Source of the DNA: Ignavibacteria bacterium
Lineage (GTDB): Bacteria > Bacteroidota > Ignavibacteria > Tepidaquicellales > Tepidaquicellaceae
Assembly: GCA_028714695.1 (NCBI GenBank)
Contig: JAQTLX010000006.1
Location: 1 to 64,000, forward strand
DNA length: 64,000 bases
Reading direction: 5' to 3'
In this document: piece by piece, positions 31,056 through 47,707 of the stretch
Position numbering within the stretch: the stretch's first letter is position 1
Layout of the letters: each line of letters starts with the position of its first letter
Notes under the pieces: generated by a model
What the model was told of the DNA's origin: nothing
Database searches by the model: none
What the model saw: only the letters and a program-made list of their open reading frames with translations
Translations under genes and position numbers: made by a program

Positions 31056-33848
31056 TCAAATTTTCTTAAGTTCGTCGTAGGTTAATTTGTAAATATTATC
31101 GAGTCTGTTAATAAGGCTTTCAAGTTCCTCGCGAGTATTATTTCCGTTTAGCGATTCGACCATAATGCACACTTCGGCAAGCCTGTTAGCACCGAGGTTA
31201 TGGCTGATTCTCCTGAGGTTAGAGGATGCTTTTTTGAGACCGGTCAGATTATTATTCCTGTATGTTTTTTTTATTTCAGAAATCAATTCAGGAGCCAGTT
31301 CCATATACAGACCAATAACTTCTTTCAGATTATTGCTTTCATCAAGTTGTTTCAGACCATAGATAATTTCGGAATCAAGCATAAGACTTGATTTAATATT
31401 CCTTGATACTGTTTTTTTCTCTCTGAGATTCTCCGACCATTTTTTTATAATACTCTGGACATCGTCAATAATAACAGGTTTGCTAAGATAATCATCCATA
31501 CCTGCATTCAGGCATTTTTCTTTATCCCCCTGCATTACGTTTGCCGTCATTGCGATAATAAAAGGTCTTTCATCAGCATTCCAGTTTTGAACAATATATT
31601 TTGTCGCTTCAATTCCGTCCATTTCTGGCATTTGCACATCCATAAAAACAAGGTCATACCTGACGCGTTTCAATTCATCAATCGCTTCAATACCGTTACT
31701 TACAACATCTGACTGATAGCCCAATTGGGCAAGTATTTTCACAATGAGTTTTTGATTGATAATATTATCTTCCGCTACAAGAATCTTAAGCGGTATTTCA
31801 ACAGACAGGTGCTTCTTGTCGGATTTCGGCTGTATATCCATTTTTGTAGCAACACTTCCCGTTCTTTTTTCTTCTGCATGGGTAAAAGGAGCGAGTATAC
31901 TAATCAGCATTTTATGAAGTTGTGCCTGCCTTACGGGTTTAGAAACGAGCGCATTCAAATATTCGCTGATTTCCTCTTTAGACATTTCCTGAGCGCCTGC
32001 CGAACTGAGAATAATAATAGGCAGAGAATTTTTATCCTTATATTTTCTAATTTCCTTTGTAAGTTCCATTCCGTCCATATCCGGCATAAGCATATCGAGT
32101 ATTGCTATATCAAACGGTTCATCTTTAATAATCCAGTTTATAGCCTCCTTAGAATTTCTTGTAGACCTCGGAATCATGCCCCAGTTTTTACACTGAATTG
32201 TGAGAATGTGCAGATTGGTTTCATTATCATCAACGATAAGAACACGTTTATTTTTTAGAGCCGGCATTGATGATTTAAGAAATACCTTAGGAGGATTAAC
32301 TTTTGAGATTTTAGTTTTTATTGTAAAATAGAAAGTCGAGCCCTGTTTTTCTTTACTTTCAACACTAATATTGCCGCCCATTAATTCCACGAGGCGTTTG
32401 CAGATAGCGAGACCAAGACCCGTACCGCCGTATTTTCTTGTTGTAGATGAATCGACCTGTGTGAAACTATGGAAAATATAGTTAAGTTTTTCCGCAGGGA
32501 TTCCTATTCCTGAATCCTTGACCATGAACTGCAGTTCGACAATATCATCATCCATTGCAACTTTTTTCACACTGACGAGCACTTCACCGTAGTCTGTAAA
32601 TTTTATTGCATTATTTATAAGATTAACCAGAATCTGTCTTAACCTCGTCACATCACCAACGATAAAATCCGGAACGTCCTGTTCGATGAGATGCAGAAGA
32701 TCGAGTCGCTTCTTTACTGCTTCCGATGCCAGCAATTCAAATGCTTCTTCAATACACTCTTTGATTTCGAAAGGCGCCTCTTCGAGGTCCATCTTGCCCG
32801 ATTCAATCTTAGAGAAATCGAGAATATCATTAATGAGAGTAAGAAGTGTATCGCCGCTGATACGTATAGTTTCAACGTATTCTCTTTGCTCCGGAGTAAG
32901 ACCTGTTTCAAGGAGAAGACCCGTCATGCCAAGAACACCATTCATCGGAGTACGGATTTCGTGGCTCATGACCGCGAGAAATTCAGACTTCGCTCTGGCT
33001 GCTTCCTCGGCAGTTTCTTTTAGTTTTATTAATTCGTCTTCGGCTTTTTTTCTTTCAGTGATATCGGATATAATTCCGTACAGACCGACGATTTTACCTT
33101 TGTCTTCGTAAAGTAATCTCGAAAACACATCCGCCCAGATAGGCTGATTATCTCTTGACCTTAAGCGTATCTGATATCTGCAATAGTCCTTTTCTTTTTT
33201 GGCAAGTTTGCTGTAGCATTCTTCATACATATAAAAATCATTCGGAAAAATAAAACTGCCGAACGGTTTTTCAAGCGATTCCTCAATCGAATAACCCGTA
33301 ATATCGCACCATGCTTTGTTTATATAAATTAATTTTCCTTTTGAATCCGTCTGGAAAATTATATCCTTTATGTTATTTGTAAACGTGTCAAAATTACCTC
33401 TGCTGATAAGGTAATTATCACTGGGGTCCTGAATTTCTTTTACAAGAGAAGAAATAGAATCGAGCATTTGTTCCATGCTCAGACCTTCTACGTTGTCAAC
33501 TTTTTTGCCGAGATATTGTAGCAGTATAATTAAGATTTCCTTTAGAGTCAGATAAATGAATTTCTGCCTTTTTGATTCAGCAAGCAAAAGTTCATTAGAT
33601 TTCTTCAAATCGTCGGCTATCAGTCTTAAACTATTAACCTTGCTTTTATTATCATCTTCGAGTTCAGAGTAATAATTATCGACTAATTCGAATAAATCAT
33701 ATAGTCTGTCGGGAATTGCTGACGCATACCCCGGAATCTTAATAAAATTACTGATTTCCGACAGCCAAATAAGAAAATCTATAAATTCCTTTTCGGTATT
33801 TAAGCCGAAAACTGATTTTATTTGGTCTATTAAAGAAGTATTTTTCAT
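31056..33848 (-). CDS. Hybrid sensor histidine kinase with two receivers and a degenerate Hpt
   Basis: The 930-residue cytoplasmic protein has, in order: an unassigned helical N-terminus (1-145); a PAS domain (about 150-265); HisKA with H296 in [11 protein letters not shown]; HATPase_c with DSGIGIP and GGTGLGLAI; a first receiver (phospho-acceptor D585, in [11 protein letters not shown]); a second receiver (D737, in [11 protein letters not shown]); and a C-terminal Hpt-like helical bundle (about 825-930). In that last domain the phospho-acceptor histidine of AH-x-LKG is replaced: the segment reads [15 protein letters not shown], with S876 at the histidine position. No membrane helix is present. 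An intact Hpt protein is encoded 153 bp upstream on the same strand. Confidence 0.93.
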
Positions 33849-33852
33849 TTGT

Positions 33853-33868
33853 ATAGTGAGTACACTAT
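33853..33868. promoter_or_regulatory. Inverted repeat just upstream of the hybrid kinase start
   Basis: ATAGTG-agta-CACTAT is a perfect 6-bp inverted repeat with a 4-bp spacer, 5 bp before the kinase start codon. It could be an operator or an mRNA hairpin that limits ribosome access. No regulator is known. Confidence 0.25.
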
Positions 33869-34001
33869 TATTAATTTTTAAAAACTACGATAGAAATTGC
33901 TGCAAGATATTAAACCACTGTTTTAACATGTGTTATGCATAAGCAATCAAACTCAATTCTAATCGGTATATATGTTACATCAAATAATGTACCAGAAAAG
34001 A

Positions 34002-34355
34002 TTAAAGAGTACTCATTGCATCCATAGTAAGTTTATAAACAACCTGGATTTTAGAGATTAATTCATCTGAGCCTTCAGAAATGCCGTTTTTTGAATTAAT
34101 TTCAACTGTCTTGCAAATATTTGCAAGTTCTTTAGCACCAATGTTTAGACTTGCTCCTTTGAGTGCGTGGGCAGTTTTTGAGAGATTATCGAGGTCTTTC
34201 GATTGAGCGTTAGCAACTATCTTATGATAGAGTTCGGGATATTGTTCATTATATAAATCGATTATTTCCTTAAAAAAATCGTTATCTTCGTCATTCATTT
34301 CTTTCAGTCCCTGAATAATTGACATATCCAGTAGATCTTCGTTTGAGTATTCCAT
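34002..34355 (-). CDS. Stand-alone histidine phosphotransfer (Hpt) protein
   Basis: The 117-residue helical protein has the intact Hpt signature TAHALKGASLNIGAKELA with the phospho-acceptor H63. Hpt proteins relay phosphoryl groups between receiver domains. It resembles the C-terminal domain of the neighbouring hybrid kinase along its whole length: both begin LD-x-x-IIxGLK and end VYKLT / IYKLT. They are probably duplicates. It starts 9 bp after the HPPD stop and the kinase gene follows after 153 bp. Confidence 0.92.
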   Translation of the reverse strand: MEYSNEDLLDMSIIQGLKEMNDEDNDFFKEIIDLYNEQYPELYHKIVANAQSKDLDNLSKTAHALKGASLNIGAKELANICKTVEINSKNGISEGSDELISKIQVVYKLTMDAMSTL

Positions 34356-34364
34356 ATATTTATT

Positions 34365-35468
34365 TTATAATGTTCCTCTTAATTCTTGCTCTCTTTCTAT
34401 CGATTCAAAGAGCGCTTTAAAATTGCCTTTCCCGAAACTTCTGGCACCTTTTCTCTGAATAATTTCGAAAAACAAAGTTGGTCTGTCTTCAACAGGTTTG
34501 GAGAATATCTGGAGAAGATAACCGTCTTCGTCCCTATCGACGAGTATTCCGATTTTTTCCAATGATAATAAATCCTCATCTATTTTTCCTATCCGATTTT
34601 CAAGTTCCGCATAATATGACCTCGGAACAGAAAGAAATTCGACGCCTCTTTCTTTAAGTTGATTTACCGTACTTAAAATGTCAGGAGTAGTCATTGCAAT
34701 ATGCTGAATGCCCGGTGACTTATAGAAATCCAAATATTCTTCGATTTGTGATTTTTTCTTACCCGGAGCAGGTTCATTGATAGGCATTTTAATTTTCCCG
34801 GTACTGTTTTGCATAACCTTGCTCATGAGTGCAGTATATTCGGTTGAAATATCTTTGTCATCGAATGAAAGCAGTTGGTTAAAGCCCATCGTATTGGCAT
34901 AGAAATCAACCCAGTGCATCATTTTCCCGAGTTCTACATTACCCACCATATGGTCAACCGATTTAAGCCCGGTATCTTTAATACCTTTCAGCGCTCTGTT
35001 TTTAGCATCAATAAAACCCGGCATGAAATTTCCGGAATAATTTTTTCTTTCGATGAATGAATGTATAGTATCACCGAACGTCCGTATTGATGATTTTATA
35101 ATATAGCCGTTTTCATCCTGAATTTTCACGGGTTCAAGATACGGGACGGCTCCTCTTTTAACGGTTTCTTCGAATGACTTTGCCGCATCATCGACTTCAA
35201 ACGCAACATCAAAGACACCATCTCCGTGTTTCATGACATGTTCAGACAAAGGCGAATCGTCTTTATAAGAAGATGTTAAAAGGAATCTGATTTTACCCTG
35301 TTCCAAAAGGTAAGAAGCCCTGTCCTGATTTTTAGTTTCAAGACCCGAATACGCGGTTAATTTAAAACCGAAAGCGTATTGATAATATACTGCGGATTGC
35401 TTTGCATTACCGCAAAAGAATTCAATATAATCTATTCTTTTTAAAGGAAGAAAATCTGTCATATACAC
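34365..35468 (-). CDS. hpd: 4-hydroxyphenylpyruvate dioxygenase
   Basis: HPPD turns 4-hydroxyphenylpyruvate into homogentisate in tyrosine breakdown, using Fe(II). The 367-residue protein has two vicinal-oxygen-chelate domains. The iron ligands are visible as H173 (SVDHMVGN), H256 (GIQHIAM) and E335 (TLFFEIIQRKG), and the end GKGNFKALFESIEREQ is the family signature. A second in-frame ATG at 35462 could be the true start. Homogentisate dioxygenase and later pathway genes are not adjacent. It lies between a sigma-54 response regulator gene (49 bp upstream) and an Hpt gene (9 bp downstream). Confidence 0.96.
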   Translation of the reverse strand: MYMTDFLPLKRIDYIEFFCGNAKQSAVYYQYAFGFKLTAYSGLETKNQDRASYLLEQGKIRFLLTSSYKDDSPLSEHVMKHGDGVFDVAFEVDDAAKSFEETVKRGAVPYLEPVKIQDENGYIIKSSIRTFGDTIHSFIERKNYSGNFMPGFIDAKNRALKGIKDTGLKSVDHMVGNVELGKMMHWVDFYANTMGFNQLLSFDDKDISTEYTALMSKVMQNSTGKIKMPINEPAPGKKKSQIEEYLDFYKSPGIQHIAMTTPDILSTVNQLKERGVEFLSVPRSYYAELENRIGKIDEDLLSLEKIGILVDRDEDGYLLQIFSKPVEDRPTLFFEIIQRKGARSFGKGNFKALFESIEREQELRGTL

Positions 35469-35517
35469 AATTTATTTGTTTTAATGATAAAACAAAAATT
35501 GCAAAATATAATTCCAA

Positions 35518-36903
35518 TCAATACTTATACTCTCTTGGGTCTATACCAAGTTTAGCAATTTTCTGCCTCAGGCTAACGGGATGGAAATTAATTGCTTTTG
35601 CCGTGGCTGCGACATTGCCTTTATACAATTTAAGATATTTTTTTATAAAATCGACCTCAAAATCCCTTATAATGGTCTCTTTATTCTCGTTATAATCAGC
35701 AGAATAGGTTCTCCCGCTTTCTTTACCGAGAATATTTGCAGGAAGCAAATCAGCGGTGATTTTATTATCCTCGCACAAAATCGAGGTTCTTTCGGCAACG
35801 TTTTTTAATTCTCTGATATTTCCCGGCCAGTGATAATTAATAAGAATATCTTTGACACCCTTTTCAATGACCGGAACGGGTTTTTTATTCGTAATGCTGA
35901 ATTCTTTTATGAACTTATCGAAATAGAATTCAATGTCTTCTTTCCTGTCTTTAAGGCTCGGAAGATGGAATTCGAAAACATTAAGCCTGTAATAGAGATC
36001 TTCTCTGAATCTGCCTTCGGCAATAAGTTTTTTTAATTCCTGATTTGTAGCGGCAATAATCCTGACATTGGTAGTTTGAATTCTTGTATCGCCCACTTTC
36101 GAGAATTCTCTTTCCTGAAGTACTCTGAGAAGTTTAACCTGGATGACAGTTTCTATTTCACCGATTTCATCCAGAAATATTGTACCATTATCCGCTATTT
36201 CAAAATACCCTTTATGATCTTTCACAGCGCCGGTAAACGAGCCCTTGACGTGTCCGAACAATTCCGATTCCAGGAGTTGCGGAGGAAGTGCTGCGCAGTT
36301 TATTACAACGAACTGCTGGTCTTTTCTGTTACTGCTTTTGTGAATGTATTTCGATAGTACTTCTTTGCCTGTACCGTTCGAGCCTGTAATCAAGACTGTA
36401 GAATCTGTTCGTGCGACTTTTTTTGCTTCGACAAGCATATCTTTTATTTCTTTGCTTGACGTTTCGTACACAAATTCTGATTCAGCATCGTGTTCAACTC
36501 TTTCGAGTCTCTGTTTTAAAAGAATATTTTCATGCAGCAATTGAATTCGCTCAAGTCCTCTTTGAATAGAAAGGAGCAGTTCTTCTTTATTTACAGGTTT
36601 GGTTAGATAATCGAAAGCACCAAGTCTTATTGCATCAACAGCGGACCTTATAGTAGCGAATGCAGTGATAAGAATAACTATAAAGTCCGGTTCTATTTTC
36701 AATGCTTCTTCCGTCAATTCAATACCGTTCATTCCCGGCATATTGAAATCCGTTAGAAGGATATCGTATTTAAATTCTCTGATTTTTTCTATTGCATTCT
36801 CGCCGCTATTTACAGTAGTTACATTATGCCCTGCATCTTCCAGGACTTTCCTGAGAATCGCAATCGACGTAAGTTCGTCGTCAACGACTAATATTCTTGC
36901 CAT
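35518..36903 (-). CDS. Sigma-54-dependent response regulator (NtrC family)
   Basis: The 461-residue protein has a receiver domain (1-120) with phospho-acceptor D52 in LLTDFNMPG, and a sigma-54 AAA+ domain (about 145-380). Walker A is GSNGTGK (174-180), the sigma-54 contact loop is GSFTGA (221-226) where GAFTGA is usual, and Walker B is TIFLDEIGEI. A Fis-type helix-turn-helix at the C-terminus includes NVAATAKAINFHPVSLRQKI. It would activate a sigma-54 promoter when phosphorylated. Downstream on the same strand lie hpd, an Hpt gene and a hybrid kinase, likely parts of the same relay. Confidence 0.94.
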   Translation of the reverse strand: MARILVVDDELTSIAILRKVLEDAGHNVTTVNSGENAIEKIREFKYDILLTDFNMPGMNGIELTEEALKIEPDFIVILITAFATIRSAVDAIRLGAFDYLTKPVNKEELLLSIQRGLERIQLLHENILLKQRLERVEHDAESEFVYETSSKEIKDMLVEAKKVARTDSTVLITGSNGTGKEVLSKYIHKSSNRKDQQFVVINCAALPPQLLESELFGHVKGSFTGAVKDHKGYFEIADNGTIFLDEIGEIETVIQVKLLRVLQEREFSKVGDTRIQTTNVRIIAATNQELKKLIAEGRFREDLYYRLNVFEFHLPSLKDRKEDIEFYFDKFIKEFSITNKKPVPVIEKGVKDILINYHWPGNIRELKNVAERTSILCEDNKITADLLPANILGKESGRTYSADYNENKETIIRDFEVDFIKKYLKLYKGNVAATAKAINFHPVSLRQKIAKLGIDPREYKY

Positions 36904-36949: not shown

Positions 36950-39328
36950 CTATTTTTTCAATACCATTTTCTTTGTATTATAATTGCTGCCGTCAATATT
37001 CAATACGTAGAAATAAACTCCGGATGAGAAATTAGCGGCATCCCATTCCGCTGTATATTCGCCGGCGTTCATTTGCTTATTAACGAGTACGGAGACTTCC
37101 CGTCCGAGTACGTCAAAAACAGATAATTTCACGTTCGACATTTTAGCAACATTGAAATTAATTTTAGTTACGGGATTAAAAGGATTCGGATAATTTTGTT
37201 TCAAATCGAAATTAGCCGGAACGGTTTCGGATATTTTTTTGACGTCAAGTGCACCGCCTGCATCCGACAAACGTTTCGCAAAATCCTGATAGTATTGATT
37301 TGCAATCAATGAATCGTAAATCAGCAACACGTTTTCATCATTGTCATACGACGCTGCATTAGAGAAGTTATAAGAACCTGTTTCAACTATAGGGTTGCTC
37401 GAAGGCATATCGGCATCAATTAATATGTATTTATCATGAAACAGATAGGAGGCGCTGTAATTATCAAGATATACTCTCGCAACAGGATTCCAGACGGTTC
37501 CACCCAAACCTGCCATTTCGTAATAGACGGGTCCGTTTGTAAGATTTCCGTTTGTGCTTCTGTCGAATACGCCTCTGACCATAACAGTCGGAGGATTGTA
37601 CTTTGAATGCATTTTATTTTCAATCGAAAACTTTGTAAAAGCATAGATACAAAAGTTTATCGATTTATTTGTTTCGTTTGAAATCATGTTTTCTATCTTC
37701 GTTGCAATGTCATCGGAAGGCGAGAAATAGCAATCGACTCTTTTTCCGTTTATATTAAACAAATGAGGAGTATTGTCAAGTTTCGCAGAACCGAATTTAG
37801 CATTCGCCGGATTGTTAACATCATTATGCGAGCCCCACATTTCTTCAAATTCCCGTGTATAGGTATGACTTAATGCTTCATCCTGTATGAATATTGTATT
37901 TTCGATATCCTGATAGAACTGCTGATAAGTGATATTCGACGATCCTGTCCATATCCATTTTTTCGAATATGCCGCGGCAGTAGTATCCCTTCCATCGAAT
38001 ATGAAAAATTTATTATGCATCAAGGAAGAAGTTAAATAGTTTCTCTGCTGGACACGAATGCCATAATTGATTAAATCCTGCATCAATGACTGTACGTTTC
38101 TTGAATCATAGACGATTCTGATTTTGACTCCGCGAATAAACGCATTCAACAATGCCTGTCGAATATTCGTTAAATCGTCGAATGAATATATTGCCAGATC
38201 AATAGAGTAACGTGTCGAATCGATTCGTTGTATTAAACGCGTTTGAAAATCCGTGCTTCCGTTTGCTTTATTATTCGGCAGTGCTAAACTTGTATCCACG
38301 GGATAATTAAAATATGCTTCCATCTTCCCTGTTGATGCGGGATGCGAAGCAGTCGAGAAATATTTTGGAGAAAAAGTACTTGTACCATTAGCGTTTGTCG
38401 AAGAAATAAAAGCGTAATATATTTTTCCCGGTTTTAAGTTAATGAGATTGAGACTGTGTGAAGTCGACATTGCTTCATTAAATACAGAGTCTGTATACAC
38501 AACGGGTTGATTTATAGAATCCGAAACGAAATATTTTACTTTCGAATTACCTGCCGCTAATGTTGTCCAGTTTATTGTAACGGATGTAGGTTGAATATTA
38601 GATTCTGTCGGCACTCCTGCTATATTCGGACCGCCTGATGAAATAATAATATCATTCAGATCTCTTGGAATTATCTGATATCCGCCGAAATAAGGCGAAG
38701 AGGATTTATACTGACTGTTTAAACAAACAACTGAAAACGGATATGCCGGAATCAACGTATTGGCAATGTTTGATGAACCATAAATTCTTATATCGCATGA
38801 ATCGTTTCCTACAAACAATCTGTAATTTGTACCTGAACCTGAGACGGTCCACTGCGTTACGGGTTGATATGTTGATGTGCTTCTTATTGAGGTAACACCG
38901 TTTATTCTGATTAATCTTGCTTCATAATTTTCGCCATTTACTCTGATATCTCCCGGAGTCACTACTACTGGTGAAGGTGTCGTAATACCCGATGCCAGTA
39001 TTTGATATGCGGAAACCGGTTGAAGTTCCGTAAGACCGTTATAGTTAGTAACCAGTCCGGTTACCTGAACGCTGTCGCCTTTTGCTACTGCTGCGCCAAA
39101 TGTCGCATCATAAGCAACAAGACCGGCTGTAGGCACCTGAAAATATACAGTGGGTGTACCGAGTTCATGGTTTGTAGTAACGACACCTCTTACTGTTACT
39201 GTCTGTCCCACAAGCAGTGAGACGCCATTGGCGTCCTGACGGCGTACCGAGTCTATCGGTATCCATTGAGCCGAAGCAGCAGACACAAAAATTAATAAAA
39301 GAGCAATAGAATAGATGAGTTTTTTCAT
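36950..39328 (-). CDS. T9SS-exported phospholipase-D-fold protein with OB-fold and Fn3 domains
   Basis: The 792-residue protein has a signal peptide (1-20) and an OB-fold-like region of the kind seen in extracellular nucleases (about 25-125, VGQTVTVRGVVTTN). A fibronectin III domain (about 238-325) follows, then a PLD-like domain with two complete HKD motifs: HNKFFIFD with GSSN, and HDKYILID with GSYN. The C-terminus is a T9SS sorting domain beginning NYPNPFNPVTKINF and ending KKMVLKK. PLD-fold enzymes hydrolyse phosphodiester bonds in lipids or nucleic acids; the OB-fold favours nucleic acid. It is expected to be secreted or cell-surface bound. Confidence 0.88.
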   Translation of the reverse strand: MKKLIYSIALLLIFVSAASAQWIPIDSVRRQDANGVSLLVGQTVTVRGVVTTNHELGTPTVYFQVPTAGLVAYDATFGAAVAKGDSVQVTGLVTNYNGLTELQPVSAYQILASGITTPSPVVVTPGDIRVNGENYEARLIRINGVTSIRSTSTYQPVTQWTVSGSGTNYRLFVGNDSCDIRIYGSSNIANTLIPAYPFSVVCLNSQYKSSSPYFGGYQIIPRDLNDIIISSGGPNIAGVPTESNIQPTSVTINWTTLAAGNSKVKYFVSDSINQPVVYTDSVFNEAMSTSHSLNLINLKPGKIYYAFISSTNANGTSTFSPKYFSTASHPASTGKMEAYFNYPVDTSLALPNNKANGSTDFQTRLIQRIDSTRYSIDLAIYSFDDLTNIRQALLNAFIRGVKIRIVYDSRNVQSLMQDLINYGIRVQQRNYLTSSLMHNKFFIFDGRDTTAAAYSKKWIWTGSSNITYQQFYQDIENTIFIQDEALSHTYTREFEEMWGSHNDVNNPANAKFGSAKLDNTPHLFNINGKRVDCYFSPSDDIATKIENMISNETNKSINFCIYAFTKFSIENKMHSKYNPPTVMVRGVFDRSTNGNLTNGPVYYEMAGLGGTVWNPVARVYLDNYSASYLFHDKYILIDADMPSSNPIVETGSYNFSNAASYDNDENVLLIYDSLIANQYYQDFAKRLSDAGGALDVKKISETVPANFDLKQNYPNPFNPVTKINFNVAKMSNVKLSVFDVLGREVSVLVNKQMNAGEYTAEWDAANFSSGVYFYVLNIDGSNYNTKKMVLKK

Positions 39329-39343
39329 GACAAATATATTTGA

Positions 39344-41137
39344 TTAATAATTTAATTTCTTTCCATAAGAAGCCAAAAAGGAATTTAGAACAATACCCTG
39401 CGGTGTTTCATCTTTTTTCCTGCTTATTTCGGCTTTTAATTTATCCGGATTTTCATTAATACCTTTTTCTATCAATGACTTCTGATAAACAAAAGTATAT
39501 GGCGAGAAGTAACTGTATTCGTATTTATCTATAAGATCTTTAAATTTAGGTATATTTCTTACCCATAAGAAGGATTTATCGTCCCAGAAGAGGAGTTTCC
39601 AGTTTGCGCTTTTACAGAAATATGATATTACTGTATTATCCATTTCTTTCGGATCTCTTACGAGATCAGGAGCAAGATAGATTGCATATTCGATATTATA
39701 TTCATCAAGTTTTTGTTCGAATCCCGGACGTTTAGAGAGTATCTGCTGATATTTATTAAAAATATCATCGTTAAGATTTCTGCTGTCGATGAAATTCTGT
39801 TTACCTTCAAAATTCCAGACGAAGAAACCACCGGTCCCAAAATGGTTGAACACCCTTCCGCCGATATTTGGTATATCATTATTTTTCATAAAATCGAAGA
39901 GTTGAGTCGGTATAAAATCCGAGTTGATACCAACCCCGGTAACACGATAGTATTTCAGATAATTTAGATATAGTTCGTTATCGGGGATTTTAATTATAAT
40001 AAAAATCAGGAACAAACCCATAGCAACTTTGAGTCCCGGTTTCTTTGTAATCATTGTTTTTACGTTTTCGCTTTTTAGAGATTCGAAAAGCAGATTCAAT
40101 GCTACAAATACAAAAGGAAACAAAATAATAACGTAATCGACTGTAAAACGCATTGCCCTTACAGAATACAAAGCGAAACCGATATATAAAATTGCAGGAA
40201 AGACATCCTTCTTTTTGAAAGAATAATAGATTGTCAATACACCTGAGAATAAAAGCAGTTTATAAAGAATATTCACAAAACCATCTCCGGTTCGTGAGCC
40301 GAACGGCGACATCCATTCATTAACGGTTTCCAGCATCTTCATTTTAGTATGTTCGAAAGCATAAACGTATGTCTGAAAGAAATTGGGATTAACGAGCATA
40401 ACCATCGCTGATACAGCCAGTATAATAAACAATCTTAGAAGTTCTTTCTTATCGAGGGGTCTTATTTCAGAATTAGAAAATGATTTATTATAAAATGTAT
40501 TTATAAACTCAGAAATGAAATAAAGGAACATTATAAATCCGCCGGCAATAATGCCCATGTGAATATTTGCCCAGAGCAGAAAAATAAGCGGTATAAAATA
40601 CAAAACTTTGTGGCTGCCTCTGTTGAAATATCTGTATCTGCATATTATATAAAGAAGCAATACAAAGAACAGATAGGAAAGCATATGCGGGCGCGGTGTC
40701 AGCCTGTCGATTATTGCAAAGGAAAGAGTGAACAAAGATATGATTGAAAATATAACACTTACATTGAATTTCCTCAGCAAATGATAAAGGAGACTGAAAA
40801 TAGATAAGAATATTAAAGTTCTAAGAACCGAGAGTCCGGTATAACCTGAGATTTTAAAAGTGAGATAAGAAATTACATCCCATCCCCATTCGAAAGGCAT
40901 CCACGTTTGTCCCTGCGTAAGGAAACCGAAGATATCCGTAGATGGAACATGTCCTGTGCCGAGAATATATCTGCCTGTAGCGAGGTGCCAGAACACGTCA
41001 TCATCGCCCGTTATTTTAAAAGTTGTAAAGAAAACCAGAAAAATAAAAAAAATACCTACCAGAGCATAATTGAAGTAAGGATTTTCAGTATATGCGACAA
41101 AGTTATGTTTAACTTCTTTCTTTTTTTCTTTAGACAT
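39344..41137 (-). CDS. Polytopic membrane protein, GT-C-like
   Basis: The 597-residue protein has about ten to twelve membrane helices in residues 20-400 and a soluble C-terminal domain (about 405-597). The first extracytoplasmic loop has an acidic motif in TGDDDVFWHLATGRYI, which resembles the catalytic loop of GT-C glycosyltransferases using lipid-linked sugars. No specific family is certain. It lies 6 bp after the NHL lipoprotein gene in the surface block, so a role in glycosylating an exported protein or glycan is possible but unproven. Confidence 0.65.
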   Translation of the reverse strand: MSKEKKKEVKHNFVAYTENPYFNYALVGIFFIFLVFFTTFKITGDDDVFWHLATGRYILGTGHVPSTDIFGFLTQGQTWMPFEWGWDVISYLTFKISGYTGLSVLRTLIFLSIFSLLYHLLRKFNVSVIFSIISLFTLSFAIIDRLTPRPHMLSYLFFVLLLYIICRYRYFNRGSHKVLYFIPLIFLLWANIHMGIIAGGFIMFLYFISEFINTFYNKSFSNSEIRPLDKKELLRLFIILAVSAMVMLVNPNFFQTYVYAFEHTKMKMLETVNEWMSPFGSRTGDGFVNILYKLLLFSGVLTIYYSFKKKDVFPAILYIGFALYSVRAMRFTVDYVIILFPFVFVALNLLFESLKSENVKTMITKKPGLKVAMGLFLIFIIIKIPDNELYLNYLKYYRVTGVGINSDFIPTQLFDFMKNNDIPNIGGRVFNHFGTGGFFVWNFEGKQNFIDSRNLNDDIFNKYQQILSKRPGFEQKLDEYNIEYAIYLAPDLVRDPKEMDNTVISYFCKSANWKLLFWDDKSFLWVRNIPKFKDLIDKYEYSYFSPYTFVYQKSLIEKGINENPDKLKAEISRKKDETPQGIVLNSFLASYGKKLNY

Positions 41138-41143
41138 TTAAAC

Positions 41144-42229
41144 CTAGTTTAGATCAGTAGATAGTTTATATCTTACTATTCTGTTATTTTTAGTATCGGC
41201 TATATACAGCACCTTGCTGAAGTGCGCAACTCCCATAGGAGTATCAAACTGACCGTCGCCGCTGCCGTATTTACCGAAAGATTCGACCATGAGTCTTCCC
41301 GAACTGCTGAATTTATACAAATGATTTCTCAGTGCATCGATAACGTAAACGTTCGAGTATGCATCCTGAGTAACGGAACCGGGCGAACCGAATTTCATCA
41401 CGACTATATCCTGCGAAGGCGAAGTGAATTTCGGATCATAGGCACCGCTTGAATAATTGTAATTAAACCAAATCACTTTATTCAGCGACACAGTATCCTG
41501 AGTATTTCTTGCAATAATAAAATCAGTTGAACTGTTTTTTGCAATAGTTATTCCCGATGTATTTTCGATTGAATAGAAACTGTTGCCCGAAATCTGAAAA
41601 CCTGATATTTTTACGAGATGCGTAACTGACTCTATTCCTTTTACATTAAGTATTGCATTGCCCGGATCAATTCCAATCGGGTCACCTGGCCCGATTCTTG
41701 TTATTATATAAGAGTTATCGGGATAAATCGAAACACCCGTAAATTTTCTAAGTTTACTTGAATTCGGTGTAGGATACAAACTTGTCAATAATGTAATCTG
41801 TCTTGCATTTCCGACCAGACCGCCGCCGTTTACGAGTTTAAATCTATGCAAAACAGATATTGTGTCGACAGCCGTTAATGAATCACTGATTACAAGCAGG
41901 TCAAAATTATAATCCTGCGCTATTTTATTCGGGAAAATATTATCACCGAGGTTTCTTGTGCTAACAACGCCTCCTGAAATATCCATCTGAACAATTCGAT
42001 TATTCTTGGTATCACAAACATAAAGCAACTGATCGTTTCCAATTATTATATCTTTCGGATATGAAAATCCCGTCCAGACGGGAGACTGCAGAACATAAGC
42101 AGTATCGCTAACGTTAACAGTACCGTTGTTAGTAATCGGGAACTGGCTCAAGTCCAGTTGATTACCGCAGCCGTACAAACCGGCGAAGACAAGCAGTATT
42201 AAAAAATATTTCACTAAAACTTTTCGCAT
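41144..42229 (-). CDS. NHL-repeat lipoprotein
   Basis: The 361-residue protein has a lipoprotein signal with lipobox LYGC (Cys about residue 21). It is followed by beta-propeller repeats of the NHL type: GNDQLLYVCDTKNNRIVQMD, then NVYVIDALRNHLYKFSSSGR, then VLYIADTKNNRIVRYKLS. NHL propellers usually bind proteins or ligands. It is expected on the outer membrane or periplasmic face. It is 32 bp after the PorV-like gene and 6 bp before the polytopic membrane protein. Confidence 0.88.
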   Translation of the reverse strand: MRKVLVKYFLILLVFAGLYGCGNQLDLSQFPITNNGTVNVSDTAYVLQSPVWTGFSYPKDIIIGNDQLLYVCDTKNNRIVQMDISGGVVSTRNLGDNIFPNKIAQDYNFDLLVISDSLTAVDTISVLHRFKLVNGGGLVGNARQITLLTSLYPTPNSSKLRKFTGVSIYPDNSYIITRIGPGDPIGIDPGNAILNVKGIESVTHLVKISGFQISGNSFYSIENTSGITIAKNSSTDFIIARNTQDTVSLNKVIWFNYNYSSGAYDPKFTSPSQDIVVMKFGSPGSVTQDAYSNVYVIDALRNHLYKFSSSGRLMVESFGKYGSGDGQFDTPMGVAHFSKVLYIADTKNNRIVRYKLSTDLN

Positions 42230-42261: not shown

Positions 42262-43281
42262 TTATCTTTTTGTAGGGAATAAAACACTTAATGAGAATCT
42301 GTGTGCAAAACCCAATTCTTTGAAATTAGCAACGGAATAATCAAGGCTGCCTCTGGCAAACGACAATGGGAATTTTAATCCTATACCGCCTGAATAAGAT
42401 TCCGCATCCACATTAAATTTATATCCGCCTCTTATGAACAAGAAATCTTTATAAGCGTATTCACCGCCTATACTGAAATTTTCGGCATTATCATTCGGAC
42501 TGTTTAATTGAATGCTCGTAGTAATCCGGTTTCTTTCATTCATCCATGGTTCAAATGCAAAACCTACTCTGAACACGGTCGGAGGAGGAAAACTCTGGAA
42601 GTTATTGGCTGTCCTGCCGCCTACTAATTCAACCGAACCAGAAGGCGAAACCTGTCCGCCGAAATTTGTAATCATAACCGCAAAACGCGAAGTGCCAAGT
42701 CCTGTTTTATAATAAGTAGCAAGGTCGCCGACAACAGTTCTCATTTTTAATGCACCTAGATTTTCTTCGATATATCTTACAGTTGCACCGAATGAAAACT
42801 GGTCTGTCATTTTCCTTGCAAATGTGAGACCAACGGCAAGGTCGGAAAATCTGAAATAATCTCCTGTACCCTGCGGCTGATATTCCGTAGTAACGCTCAT
42901 ATCTTCCGTTCTTAAAGAAGTTATGCTTAAACCGACTGCATTGCTCCCAAAATGATAAACACCGCCTACATTTTCAAGCCTTGTATCAACAAACCATTGA
43001 GTATGTGTTGCGGTAAATCCATTTTCATTAAAAAGAACTATACCGGCAGGATTGTAATTCAATCCTGAAATATCGTCAGATACAGCAACAAAAGATTCAC
43101 CCATTCCGGTACCTCTGGCAGTTGTTCCTATTTTTAAGAATTGGAATGACGACGTACCTGTCCGCTGACCTCCAAGATTAGGAATAAGCTGCGCAAAAAG
43201 TCCATTTGCGATAAACAGTAAACTTAATAAAGTTACTATTCTAATTTTTGTCAGGTTATGTTTTTTCAATTTGAATATCAT
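42262..43281 (-). CDS. PorV/PorQ-family outer membrane protein
   Basis: The 339-residue protein has an N-terminal signal peptide followed by the PorV/PorQ (FadL-like) barrel pattern: FLKIGTTARGTGMGESFVA, NYNPAGIVLF, then paired amphipathic strands ending FAHRFSLSVLFPTKR. In T9SS organisms PorV shuttles cargo to the outer membrane attachment complex, and paralogues occur beside exported substrates. It lies 21 bp after the TonB receptor gene and before the NHL lipoprotein. Confidence 0.85.
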   Translation of the reverse strand: MIFKLKKHNLTKIRIVTLLSLLFIANGLFAQLIPNLGGQRTGTSSFQFLKIGTTARGTGMGESFVAVSDDISGLNYNPAGIVLFNENGFTATHTQWFVDTRLENVGGVYHFGSNAVGLSITSLRTEDMSVTTEYQPQGTGDYFRFSDLAVGLTFARKMTDQFSFGATVRYIEENLGALKMRTVVGDLATYYKTGLGTSRFAVMITNFGGQVSPSGSVELVGGRTANNFQSFPPPTVFRVGFAFEPWMNERNRITTSIQLNSPNDNAENFSIGGEYAYKDFLFIRGGYKFNVDAESYSGGIGLKFPLSFARGSLDYSVANFKELGFAHRFSLSVLFPTKR

Positions 43282-43302: not shown

Positions 43303-46140
43303 TTAGAATTTAACCGTTATGCCCAATTTAATCTGCCTTGGAGTCAGATACCTGGCAGGATTTGTCGGAAATGGTGAAATTGGATACTGTAAATCGGGAT
43401 AACGCGGATCATTCCAACTGTTAGGCGTCGGATCGCCGTATTCATATGCTTTTCCGGTAATAGGATTAATAATAGCCGCATTTTTATTATTCAGCAAATT
43501 CTTCACGGATATGTTGAGCACAAAATCAACATTATAGAATGTGAAATATTTATCCAGATCCATGTCAATGTAGAACCAGTTTGCGCCGACATTTCCATAT
43601 GCATTATCATAATTCGGAGTATATTCAGGGCGTCCGTTTTCAAGATATCCGGTTAAAACTTGAGGTGTATATCTTTTGCCAGATTCGAAAAAAATTCTTG
43701 TTTTCAGATTAATATCATCGAGTATGTTTCTGCCGAAACCGAATAGTCCTTTACCTTTTTCGAGTTTGAAGAATAAATTAGCAGAAGCGACAAAAGGTCT
43801 GTCCCATGCAAGATAATTTTCCGAAATTGTTTCTGTCGCACCTGTAGTGGCAATAAGATATCCCTGATCTGTCGATGAACTCTTGCCTGTTGCAACAGAG
43901 TAAGTGAAATTTAATGTTCCGTTGAACCAGCCGCCGATTCTCTTTTTGTATTCAAGTTCGATACCTCTGGTTCTGGCATAGTCCTGATTAAAATAACTTA
44001 TGAATGATTTGCCGATATATCTACCGCTGTTTATAATTATGTTTCTTGTTGCTACATAGTCATATATATTTTTATAGTATGCCGTAATCGTCAAGACGTC
44101 ATCATTTGTAAACTGATTTCTGATACCCAGTTCATAAGAAACGGTAGTTTCCGGATTCAAATCGGGATTACCGAATTTCTGGAAAGTCGATTGCGCAGAC
44201 TGCGGATTTAACTTTGCATATACGAACTGTGGGTTCGGTCGTTTTGAAAACTGACCATATGAGAAAAATAATGTCTGGTTGTTTGTTATAGGATGCGATA
44301 TACCAATTCTGGGTGAAAGTCTTCCTTTCCATTTTCTGCCGAACAAATTATAAGTATCTGCTTCATATTTCGCCCTTAACTCATCCGGGATAGTAACAAC
44401 GGCAGGATTTTTTACCGCGTCATCTACGAATTTTCCCGGGAACCAATAATCGAATCTCAATCCGTAATTCAGAATCATTCCTTTATATTGCAGAGAGTGC
44501 TGTAAGTATGCAGCGCCGAATGCGGGATATACTTTATACACATCGTTATTCAATCCCATTGGTTTTATCCATGGCTGGTAAATATCGATTAACTGCATTT
44601 CCTGAAAACTTGTTTCAATACCGGCTTTTAATTTACTCTTGGGAGTAAAATCATTTGTATAACTTGCCTTCGCTGAATATTCAAGAACGTAATGGTCATG
44701 CCATGTATATGGATTGCCGACGTCATAGAAACCATTACCCGGAATAATTCCCTGATGAGTGGAATCAATATAATAATACTGGAACGGGGGTTTGACAATG
44801 TCAAGAGGTTCTTTGTATTTGTCCCAGTTAGTTCCGTTAGCATCCACTCTTAGTGTTGTATAAAACCTGCTGAGTTTTATATCATAATAAGATTTCGGAG
44901 TCACGGTATGAGTCCACGTAAGAGTATGAATCATTGACTGCGAAGTATATGTACTGGCATTATCAAGAATATCCTGGAAATTATACTGATAGCCCGGAGA
45001 AGGTTCGACATATTCAAGATTATTCTGCAAAGAAGTAGAACTCTGATTTATCGAGACCGACTGGTTATAGGTATATGACAATTTCATCTGAGGAGTAAAC
45101 TTCCATGTAATTTTTCCAAGCCAGTACCAGTTGTTATCCTGGCGCGGGGCAAAACGTGTTCCACCGAAAGTTGACGAATAAAGTTGATTTGCTTTGCCTG
45201 CATTATTAGTATATGTTCCGTCCGATTTAAGTCTGTTAACATAGAAACCATCCGTCAATCCCATAAAGAAATTGCCAAAAAAAGTAATCTCGCCGGGAGA
45301 TTTAATTTTCAGTAATTTGAATAAATATTTCGATATAGGTTCGGGACCGCCGAGGTTGAATTCAAGTAAATCGGAATTGAAACTTGTTCCGTCATTTTTA
45401 TTCAAACCAATGTTATCGCGCGAATAATTCAGGTAAAAATTATACATGCTCCATTTACCTTCTTTAGTTCGTGCATTGATAACACCGCTTGTTGCCTGAC
45501 CGAATTCGGCATTGTAGCCCCCTGTTATTACTTCAACTTCTTCGAGAGAATTTGCGGATAATTGAATGCCGAAACCTGTTCCCGACAACGGGTCCTGAAC
45601 AGAAACGCCGTCAAGCAATAATGAGTTTTCATAACTTCTGCCGCCCCTAATATAAATTTCATTATTCTCCTGCACGATACCCGCCTGCTGCGTAACAATG
45701 TCCTTTATATCATTAACAATTGTCTTTGACAAATCTTCGCTTGATAATATATGCGAACTCGATGTCTGCTCTATATCGAGAAGAGGTCTGTCTCCTATTA
45801 CAACGATTTCCTGATCAACGGTAAAGGAAGTAAACATTAAACGAATATTCATTTCCTTCTTTTCGCCTTCATTAACCTTTACATTTGTATACTCGACAGT
45901 TTTGAAACCGATATAATCAACCTGTACTGTATAGGAGCCTCCGGGAATATTATCAATGCTGAATTTACCATCGGGATCAGTGACAGCGCCTAAATAGGAG
46001 CCTTTGATTTTGATTGTAGCGCCTTCAAGAACTGCACCCGCAGAATCTCTTACCGTTCCAAACAAAGTACCTGTTGGAGTTTGCGCAAATATTACGCTCG
46101 CTGAAATTAGCATCAGCAAGATTAGTAAAATTTTTCTCAT
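43303..46140 (-). CDS. TonB-dependent receptor with CarboxypepD_reg-like domain
   Basis: The 945-residue protein has a signal peptide (1-19), a carboxypeptidase-regulatory-like beta domain (about 22-105, GTVRDSAGAVLEGATIKI), a plug domain (about 130-225, YIRGGRSYENSLLLDGV) and a 22-strand-type barrel ending in KLGITVKF. There is no SusD gene next to it, so it is not a classical Sus pair. The ligand is unknown. It is the only TonB receptor in the window and is central to the surface block. Confidence 0.93.
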   Translation of the reverse strand: MRKILLILLMLISASVIFAQTPTGTLFGTVRDSAGAVLEGATIKIKGSYLGAVTDPDGKFSIDNIPGGSYTVQVDYIGFKTVEYTNVKVNEGEKKEMNIRLMFTSFTVDQEIVVIGDRPLLDIEQTSSSHILSSEDLSKTIVNDIKDIVTQQAGIVQENNEIYIRGGRSYENSLLLDGVSVQDPLSGTGFGIQLSANSLEEVEVITGGYNAEFGQATSGVINARTKEGKWSMYNFYLNYSRDNIGLNKNDGTSFNSDLLEFNLGGPEPISKYLFKLLKIKSPGEITFFGNFFMGLTDGFYVNRLKSDGTYTNNAGKANQLYSSTFGGTRFAPRQDNNWYWLGKITWKFTPQMKLSYTYNQSVSINQSSTSLQNNLEYVEPSPGYQYNFQDILDNASTYTSQSMIHTLTWTHTVTPKSYYDIKLSRFYTTLRVDANGTNWDKYKEPLDIVKPPFQYYYIDSTHQGIIPGNGFYDVGNPYTWHDHYVLEYSAKASYTNDFTPKSKLKAGIETSFQEMQLIDIYQPWIKPMGLNNDVYKVYPAFGAAYLQHSLQYKGMILNYGLRFDYWFPGKFVDDAVKNPAVVTIPDELRAKYEADTYNLFGRKWKGRLSPRIGISHPITNNQTLFFSYGQFSKRPNPQFVYAKLNPQSAQSTFQKFGNPDLNPETTVSYELGIRNQFTNDDVLTITAYYKNIYDYVATRNIIINSGRYIGKSFISYFNQDYARTRGIELEYKKRIGGWFNGTLNFTYSVATGKSSSTDQGYLIATTGATETISENYLAWDRPFVASANLFFKLEKGKGLFGFGRNILDDINLKTRIFFESGKRYTPQVLTGYLENGRPEYTPNYDNAYGNVGANWFYIDMDLDKYFTFYNVDFVLNISVKNLLNNKNAAIINPITGKAYEYGDPTPNSWNDPRYPDLQYPISPFPTNPARYLTPRQIKLGITVKF

Positions 46141-46177: not shown

Positions 46178-47602
46178 TCAGAACAATCTTCTGTTTCTTC
46201 TTGCTTTGTCACCCGTTGTACCGTAACCGAAATCTGTTATAAGTGCCTGCCGCATAAATAACTTCGATGCATTCATGTCTCTATTCATAATGTATAAAGG
46301 AAACAGTAAAAATATAATATTTGGGTTATTAGTAGAATTTTTCACACCAATGGAGATTGTATCATTGGTACAACTTCCTCTTGGCAGTATTCTATAAATT
46401 GTTTTTGCTGACGGGAAAGAATAAAACCCTTTAGTTCCGGCAATGATAGCACTATTATCAATTAATAATCGTGGATAAGAATTATCCGGTACTAAGAATG
46501 TAGTATCGCTCCCCAGAATTAACGGAACGAAGCAAGTTGTTTTGATGCTATCAATTGGCGCAAAATTAAACAATGCCCCTTGAACGATAGAAATATTTGG
46601 GAATCCGGATGACCATAAAACCTTTCCGCCTGAGTTAATATAATACGGTAAAGAATTTTGTGCTAAGTTTAAGTTAGGATCATTAGAAGAATTACCACCG
46701 CCATTTCGGTTTCCCACCCACATCACAATACTATATAATTTCAGAGTTTCAACGAACATCGGATTAATAATTTTTGGTATCAAATTTCCATTATTCGATT
46801 TTATATCAAGAACATCGTAGTGTATCGTATCCATGACCTGACCGAAATAAGATTCTGCCGTTCCAAATTCACCCGCCGGCATATCCTTTATCAGAAGAAT
46901 TTTAGAAGTAACATTTCTAACGCGGAAAAATTTCGAACTGTCCTGAGGCATTCTAACAATATTGCTGAAAGCGTGGGCATTATCTTGCGCCTTCATATAG
47001 ACACAGGTGTTTCCCGCTACCAAGCCGCTATCCTTTGTAAGCGTCATAATATTCAAATTGCCCGGTAATGATTTGAAATGTAAGGTATCATTTATGGAAT
47101 ACCAATAGTTGGCAATTGTAGCATCACCATCAGGATCTGTTCCAATCCATTTCAAAGTGGCTACCGGGAAAATTGTATCAGGTAAAACTACTGAGGGATC
47201 AAAGACCATTGAAGGAGCGCTGTTGATAACAGGATACAAATTTGATGCAGGTGTAGGATCTATATTTCCTTTATCATCAACCGCTGCAACCCAAATTCTG
47301 AACAGACTGTCCTGTCCTGCTATTGAAAATGCAAACGTACTGTCATTTTGCGTAGTGTAAGACCAGTTTATCGAATCGAATGATATTTTGAAACCTACAA
47401 CGATACCTGCCGGACTGTCTCCCCACCAGGATATCTTTTTAACGGTCTTTCCCGGCGCTACTGTATCTCCCGGCATAGAGAAGACGGACAGATACGTATT
47501 TGGCGGTAAATTACTTTTAGGCGCTATAATCGGGTCGCTGCACGATGATATATAAATAAACCCTACTATAAATAAAAATAATGCAGTAAAATATTTAATC
47601 AT
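46178..47602 (-). CDS. Predicted surface lipoprotein, function unknown
   Basis: The 474-residue protein has a lipoprotein signal with lipobox SSC (Cys about residue 21, SSCSDPIIAPKS). A fibronectin III-like domain spans about 35-115 (ISFDSINWSYTTQNDS), with a related repeat at about 130-215 (KWIGTDPDGDATIANYWYSI). The C-terminal part (about 230-470) has alternating helices and strands (VLWSSGFPNISIVQGALF) and might be an amidotransferase-like fold, but I cannot assign it. It lies 37 bp upstream of the TonB receptor gene on the same strand. Confidence 0.7.
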   Translation of the reverse strand: MIKYFTALFLFIVGFIYISSCSDPIIAPKSNLPPNTYLSVFSMPGDTVAPGKTVKKISWWGDSPAGIVVGFKISFDSINWSYTTQNDSTFAFSIAGQDSLFRIWVAAVDDKGNIDPTPASNLYPVINSAPSMVFDPSVVLPDTIFPVATLKWIGTDPDGDATIANYWYSINDTLHFKSLPGNLNIMTLTKDSGLVAGNTCVYMKAQDNAHAFSNIVRMPQDSSKFFRVRNVTSKILLIKDMPAGEFGTAESYFGQVMDTIHYDVLDIKSNNGNLIPKIINPMFVETLKLYSIVMWVGNRNGGGNSSNDPNLNLAQNSLPYYINSGGKVLWSSGFPNISIVQGALFNFAPIDSIKTTCFVPLILGSDTTFLVPDNSYPRLLIDNSAIIAGTKGFYSFPSAKTIYRILPRGSCTNDTISIGVKNSTNNPNIIFLLFPLYIMNRDMNASKLFMRQALITDFGYGTTGDKARRNRRLF

Positions 47603-47672: not shown

Positions 47673-47707
47673 AATCCCGTAACAAGGAAATACCTTGTTA
47701 CGGGATT
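47673..47707 (-). terminator. Strong inverted repeat, likely terminator
   Basis: A perfect 15-bp stem, AATCCCGTAACAAGG / CCTTGTTACGGGATT, with a 5-base loop. On the minus strand it is followed by TTAGTTTCTGTTTATAT, moderately T-rich. It starts 6 bp after the stop of the T9SS gene at 47714 and would end that transcript before the next lipoprotein gene. Confidence 0.65.

Follow-up and report, generated by a model that had tools for sequence, protein, structure and literature searches.

The window, as we call the whole stretch of 64,000 nucleotides of Ignavibacteria bacterium DNA that was analysed, encodes on its minus strand a two-HKD protein of the PLD superfamily, which is probably a T9SS-exported phosphodiesterase, most likely an extracellular one with nucleic acid as its substrate. 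Positions 36950-39328 (minus strand) hold exactly one intact open reading frame, from ATG through stop, with the following features:

36950..39328, minus strand: predicted secreted two-HKD PLD-fold protein, 792 aa (Pfam, NCBIfam, AlphaFold model)
39269..39328, minus strand: signal peptide, residues 1-20 (by inspection; helix 2-19 in the model)
38633..39268, minus strand: OB module, ExeM/NucH-like, residues 21-232 (NCBIfam and model; second barrel from the model only)
38360..38602, minus strand: fibronectin type III domain, residues 243-323 (Pfam fn3)
37835..38236, minus strand: PLDc_2 half 1, residues 365-498 (Pfam, profile, fold)
37934..38017, minus strand: HKD motif 1, H438 to N465 (alignment and pattern search)
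37259..37741, minus strand: PLDc_2 half 2, residues ~530-690 (Pfam, profile, fold)
37367..37438, minus strand: HKD motif 2, H631 to N654 (alignment and pattern; with E665 it pairs with the Nuc motif)
36959..37192, minus strand: T9SS type A C-terminal sorting domain, residues 713-790 (Pfam and NCBIfam)

Pfam finds PLDc_2 (PF13091) in two stretches of the 792-aa protein (E-value 1.8e-37), and the AlphaFold model of the protein has a mean pLDDT of 90.1 and a pTM of 0.66. The fn3 match (residues 243-323, E-value 7e-5) scores 23.3 bits, slightly below the cut-off of 25. The T9SS sorting domain proposed in the initial annotation is confirmed by NCBIfam (TIGR04183, type A, 38 bits against a cut-off of 23) and by Pfam (Por_Secre_tail, residues 713-789, E-value 1.7e-10). 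The same genome encodes the SprA translocon and two PorU copies, these PorU-type sortases lying side by side (G000, contig C4:103961-111787); the GldL profile TIGR03513 has no match in this genome or in any control genome. Two complete HKD motifs had likewise been claimed, and both are intact, each followed by GSxN: motif 1 is H438-K440-D445...G462-S463-x-N465, and motif 2 is H631-K633-D638...G651-S652-x-N654. Searched over all six reading frames, the window has just two matches to HxK(x)4D(x)4-18G[SGT]xN, both in the PLD protein, and two HKD patterns occur in 0 of 20,000 shuffled versions of the protein; the gap in the pattern was at first limited to 14, which retrieved only the second motif, and was widened afterwards, the gap in the first motif being 16. 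The earlier suggestion of a surface or secreted phosphodiesterase is borne out as a prediction by the sorting domain, SprA, the two PorU copies and the intact HKD pair, and we consider T9SS export and an intact phosphodiesterase active site to be well supported. On a separate point, when 150 of 251 candidates from a search of the same genome were scored, the non-PLD matches fell at the T9SS sorting-domain end of other proteins, so that G000 likely encodes well over 100 T9SS cargo proteins.

By fold, the PLD core is best matched by the exonucleases PLD3/PLD4 (Z 35, 331 residues), which fill the first 11 rows of the fold search (Z 33.7-35.5, 317-340 residues, rmsd 2.6-3.5 A). They are followed by the phospholipase 7e0m (Z 32.5), then by poxvirus F13 (Z about 30.6) and, lower, by phosphatidylserine synthases (28.0-29.4), PLD2 (27.6), polyphosphate kinase (about 26) and Streptomyces PLD (about 24.5); Foldseek alone ranks PLD3 first and 7e0m fourth. 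Since the fit to PLD3/PLD4 spans both halves of a single chain, the two motifs come together as one active site in the model. The active pair of HKD motifs, for which the initial annotation had looked to a fold search, is thereby upheld in the model, where the halves superpose on single-chain two-HKD enzymes. Like PLD3/PLD4, the window protein would be a single chain with two HKD-type halves and one active site, working outside the cytosol; unlike them, it carries the extra OB, Fn3 and sorting domains, and the identity is 15-18%. The second motif of PLD3 is HKE, according to the accessible text of PMC10783504, whereas that of the window protein is HKD. PLD3/PLD4 are 5' exonucleases, and the predicted structure likens the window protein to them by fold only. 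The shared fold leaves the substrate unfixed, as phospholipases have the same fold.

At the sequence level, the PLD halves are closest to MitoPLD, Nuc and NucT (profile E-values 4e-28, 5e-27 and 4e-15, respectively), with PLD3 at 1e-8 and a phospholipase at 3e-8. The region of the second HKD shows the Nuc motif ETGSxNFxxAAxxxNxEN, so that the signature of Nuc (1byr) around HKD2 is kept in the window protein. The nearest PDB entries by sequence carry the name mitochondrial cardiolipin hydrolase; two entries of that name, 4h4a and 4gel, are Zucchini. Nuc and PLD6/Zucchini are single-HKD homodimers (for PLD6, as stated in the part of PMC10783504 that was available), whereas the window protein has both halves in one chain and accessory domains besides. 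Two more specialized readings were tried and rejected: a role in DISARM defence as DrmC (NF038319, 25 bits against a cut-off of 133; best PADLOC score 34.1 bits) and a phage origin, for which PHROGs gave only a family of unknown function (E-value 1e-19) and a weak tail match.

The main competing explanation is a surface enzyme directed at lipids (phospholipase D, cardiolipin hydrolase or transphosphatidylase), with other cells or lysed debris as the source of its substrate, and we judge it rather unlikely. It draws on the fold neighbours, which include 7e0m at Z 32.5, the phosphatidylserine synthases and PLD1/PLD2, on the name of the nearest PDB entries, and on the occurrence of two HKDs per chain, described as typical of lipid enzymes in the available portion of PMC10783504. 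Within NCBIfam, however, the bacterial cardiolipin synthase model TIGR04265 gives 13.8 bits (cut-off 290), less than the 42.8 bits of the NucT equivalog NF010492 (cut-off 297), both scores being far below the cut-offs; Pfam at E 0.1 reveals no lipid-binding domain in the window protein; and the lamin-tail, SNase and HHH partners of its relatives point toward nucleic acid.

These partners come from a search of genome contigs, which found 210 relatives, with 78 loci kept, many of them in Ignavibacteria MAGs. Relatives from Lewinella and Fluviicola also match the OB part, and relatives without OB are found in Balneolaceae, Anaerolineae, Spirochaetes, Collierbacteria and Gastranaerophilales. The relatives examined for fusions were picked for being longer or more distant. 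In four of the eight scanned (L068, L072, L078 and L083) the PLD core is joined to a lamin tail and a DUF5689 OB domain, with Big_5 above the cut-off in L072 and L078. SNase and HHH_3 are fused to the core in L092, L094 and L101, from Balneolaceae and Crocinitomicaceae (one of eight in the first set, two of seven in the second); these three have the same two-HKD core as the window protein and differ from it in their C-terminal SNase and HHH_3 and in having no OB, Fn3 or T9SS domain by Pfam. An SNase-like N-terminal domain considered in L108, L109, L112 (Gastranaerophilales) and L114 was dropped, as none of the four had a Pfam SNase match. The likeness to Nuc, NucT and MitoPLD and the nuclease-type fusions together make nucleic acid the best-supported substrate, and on these sequence grounds it is quite probably the right one. 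Of the earlier proposal that the enzyme possibly acts on extracellular DNA, the nucleic-acid part is thus favoured by likeness and fusions, and the sharing of the fold with phospholipases stands against taking it as settled.

The OB module probably consists of two barrels, the second one seen in the model alone. Modelled on their own, residues 21-232 reach a pLDDT of 94.7, which supports an OB fold, and the first barrel matches the OB domains of RPA, AspRS (anticodon-binding) and MCM (Z 10.6-11.3 over 80-93 residues, a comparison that barely covered the second half of the OB model). A likeness of the whole module to the HIN-200 DNA sensors was rejected as too weak (query TM 0.33-0.41, rmsd 7-9.5 A). 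The NCBIfam ExeM/NucH family NF033681 matches residues 68-162 in part (26.7 bits against a cut-off of 300); the match is confined to the OB part, and the window protein has no EEP domain, which places it outside that family. DUF5689 (PF18942, cut-off 28.6 bits) is above the cut-off in five of the eight relatives scanned and has no match in the window protein at E 0.1. The DNase activity of ExeM and Xds depends on their OB region but can do without the lamin tail, as far as the available text of PMC6085458 and PMC6746945 goes. The window protein resembles ExeM, Xds and NucH in that an OB module precedes the catalytic domain, and some of its relatives share the lamin tail, but the catalytic domain is EEP in ExeM, Xds and NucH and PLD in the window protein.

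The partners of the same OB domain were checked in ten of the 13 other proteins that match it (G047, G057 and one of the G053 matches were left out): one has an EEP nuclease domain, two are amidohydrolases, one is a histidine kinase, and the remaining six have no catalytic Pfam domain. With one nuclease in ten, the OB domain alone says little about the substrate. The pairing with extracellular nucleases suggested in the initial annotation therefore holds as to the OB fold and its ExeM/NucH-like character, and fails as a nuclease-specific mark. Occurrence alongside amidohydrolases, or with no catalytic domain at all, means that the OB domain may bind saccharide or protein, and on this basis the protein could be a broad extracellular phosphodiesterase that scavenges phosphate from phospho-glycan polymers or small phosphodiesters; nothing specific favours such substrates, however, and the sequence signature is Nuc-like, so that we hold this to be improbable.

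Two further OB proteins deserve mention. A T9SS-tagged protein encoded just upstream of the gene cluster described below (47714-49999, minus strand) contains an OB region resembling that of ExeM/NucH (residues 471-660), and no catalytic domain is recognised in it; this neighbour, at 48014-48589, is the only other ExeM/NucH match in the genome, and both matches are below the cut-off. Another protein, from a genome of the same bacterial class (L131, G048:C45, 1230-3026), combines a DUF5689 OB domain, an EEP nuclease domain and a T9SS tail, and is likely a T9SS nuclease of the ExeM plan.

Phylogeny points to exchange of the N-terminal OB part between lineages, since its tree differs from that of the PLD core. 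In the OB tree a second family of the order adjoins the clade of the window protein, and the window protein's family as a single clade is rejected (p-AU 1e-8); in the PLD tree this family holds together with a support of 99.4, and the OB grouping is rejected (p-AU 0.029). Both trees comprise 32 of 49 full-length rows, and the p-AU values are only a guide, because the groups were named after the first tree and families were assigned by matching lengths and scores. Contrasting identities to the window protein are seen in individual loci, L056 having 84% in OB and 66% in PLD, and L039 64% in OB and 84% in PLD.

Full-length matches to residues 22-695 are present in 44 of 59 genomes, the source genome included: 38 of 44 in the same order and 6 of 15 in the rest of the class, counting one match with an internal TAG (G025). 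Six genomes of the order lack a full-length match: G001 and G040 contain a portion of the gene; the contig of G018 ends at the gene start; genome completeness is 67% for G027 and 64% for G043; and G033, at 98% completeness, has only a distant match of 27%. The arrangement with Fn3, unfamiliar in the initial annotation, is therefore not peculiar to one genome, being conserved in the class and found in some other Bacteroidota.

Conservation of the active site was followed in an alignment of 79 sequences, that is, the query and the 78 loci from the contig search. H438, K440, D445, G462 and N465 are kept in 78 of the 79, the remaining row being truncated, with a gap at this place; S463 is replaced by T in two rows; and H631, K633, D638, G651, S652, N654 and E665 are kept in all 79. 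Conservation of HKD1 in the 78 loci is biased, because HKD1 was itself one of the six search patterns. In a set found without patterns (the query and the 29 best other loci of the full-length search, from genomes that partly overlap the 78-locus set) all 30 rows have the catalytic letters, save for a single row that differs at S652.

The same genome holds a built-in contrast, a paralog that lost the letters which the window gene keeps:

G000:C1:276066-277622 (L147:4531-6213), minus strand: paralog without OB module, T9SS-tagged (L002)

In this copy N, E, S, T, D and S replace K440, D445, G462, S463, N465 and H631, and the copies in G001 and G002, of the same genus, are also degenerate in both HKD motifs, so that in all three copies read from the genus the frame and the sorting domain are kept and catalytic letters are lost in both motifs; elsewhere, the copy in G018 is minus four letters and that in G009 keeps all. 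The degenerate paralog is likely a secreted pseudoenzyme. That the window protein is itself a non-catalytic surface adhesin retaining the PLD fold, in the manner of this paralog with its frame and sorting domain kept and its catalytic letters lost in three of three genus copies, is very unlikely, as the window gene and its orthologs keep the catalytic letters.

Catalysis in the PLD superfamily is not known to need a metal. If the window protein is a phosphodiesterase acting on nucleic acid, its two HKD halves would build one active site between them, in the manner of PLD3/PLD4 and the Nuc homodimer. In the mechanism described for the PLD3 family, one His attacks the phosphate to give a phosphohistidine and the other protonates the leaving group, with lysines and asparagines holding the phosphate; PLD3 itself has E229, located eleven residues beyond N218, which serves H416, the nucleophile in the opposite half (both points from the part of PMC10783504 that could be consulted). 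By spacing, the counterparts of E229 in the window protein are E476 and E665. Position 476 is E in 9, Q in 22 and N in 47 of the 79 sequences, with one gap, and E665 is E in all 79. With E665 invariant and position 476 free, E665 may be taken to serve H438, and we infer by analogy that H438 acts as nucleophile and H631 as general acid. Holding the polymer would fall to the N-terminal OB module, with Fn3 as a putative spacer, and the C-terminal domain would direct export and anchoring.

The PLD gene is the last of six minus-strand genes that follow a terminator-like hairpin with gaps of 6-37 bases, in the order lipoprotein, TonB receptor, PorV-family protein, propeller, membrane protein, PLD:

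47673..47707, minus strand: terminator-like hairpin, 15 pairs, between the cluster and the upstream gene
46178..47602, minus strand: 474-aa protein, lipoprotein by inspection, first gene of the presumed operon (no Pfam match)
43303..46140, minus strand: TonB-dependent receptor (Pfam, synteny)
42262..43281, minus strand: PorV/PorQ-family outer-membrane protein (NF033709, 197.8 bits, cut-off 90)
41144..42229, minus strand: NHL / 6-bladed propeller protein, lipoprotein by inspection (Pfam, synteny)
39344..41137, minus strand: 597-aa multi-pass membrane protein (by inspection; no Pfam match)

Terminator-like sites number 21 in the window against 12.6 in shuffles, and only the 15-pair hairpin was used; promoter-like sites (64 against 70.5) are not above the shuffles and were left unused. 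Downstream of the PLD gene (31056-36903, minus strand) lie genes for an NtrC-type regulator and a 4-hydroxyphenylpyruvate dioxygenase (451 bits against a cut-off of 277), then an HPt-like ORF (by inspection) and the gene of a hybrid histidine kinase that carries PAS and two receiver domains.

The cluster is conserved, usually with the PLD gene at its end and often with the membrane-protein member. Among 45 genomes with a PLD locus (44 full-length matches and the partial one of G040, one row per genome), the propeller gene lies on the same strand, no more than 9 kb upstream, in 40, and the TonB receptor does so in 34; left out of the count were the additional TonB-receptor rows for G034 and G027, the partial row for G047, which has no PLD locus among the 45, and, where the propeller frame is split (G008, G009 and G023), its second half. 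In the other 11 genomes the receptor is on another contig (seven), farther along the same contig (two) or has no match at E 1e-150 (two). Of the six PLD-bearing genomes in the rest of the class, five showed no propeller gene within 9 kb. Homologs of the 597-aa membrane protein occupy the same place in most loci of the same family. In 14 genomes 64-100 bases separate the propeller gene from the matched PLD segment, too few to accommodate the membrane gene, and the loci of Ignavibacterium and Ignavibacteriales show the same cluster order minus this gene. The long lamin-tail-type, Lewinella and Fluviicola loci gave no match to cluster neighbours in the flank examined, which is short in some.

Uptake of the products is suggested by the conserved neighbours of the PLD gene, namely the TonB receptor, the PorV-family protein and the propeller lipoprotein: fragments released by the enzyme may be taken up with the help of these three proteins, and passage of nucleic-acid fragments through the TonB receptor of the cluster is offered here as a hypothesis. 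More speculatively, and with considerable doubt on our part, the whole may be an Ignavibacteria nucleic-acid utilisation locus, made up of a surface-anchored PLD3/PLD4-like nuclease with an exchangeable polymer-binding OB module, its own PorV-family shuttle, which would assist its export, and a dedicated TonB receptor and propeller lipoprotein, which would receive the nucleotides or oligonucleotides released.

Each part of this system is known, but their combination, a T9SS PLD-type nuclease with an ExeM-like OB module and a conserved TonB/PorV cluster, was not met in the literature searched, nor was a T9SS PLD-type nuclease as such (titles and the starts of abstracts among the matches listed, subscription papers lying outside). 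Secreted nucleases are reported in 61% of activated-sludge MAGs (PMC11495043), and extracellular DNA is described as supplying phosphorus, nitrogen and carbon in the seafloor (PMC8289736), in the accessible parts of these two papers. A PLD-type surface nuclease conserved in Ignavibacteria could escape surveys that target other nuclease domains. The window protein would provide a bacterial structural counterpart to PLD3/PLD4, and its cluster with a TonB receptor makes uptake of nucleic acid across the outer membrane directly testable.
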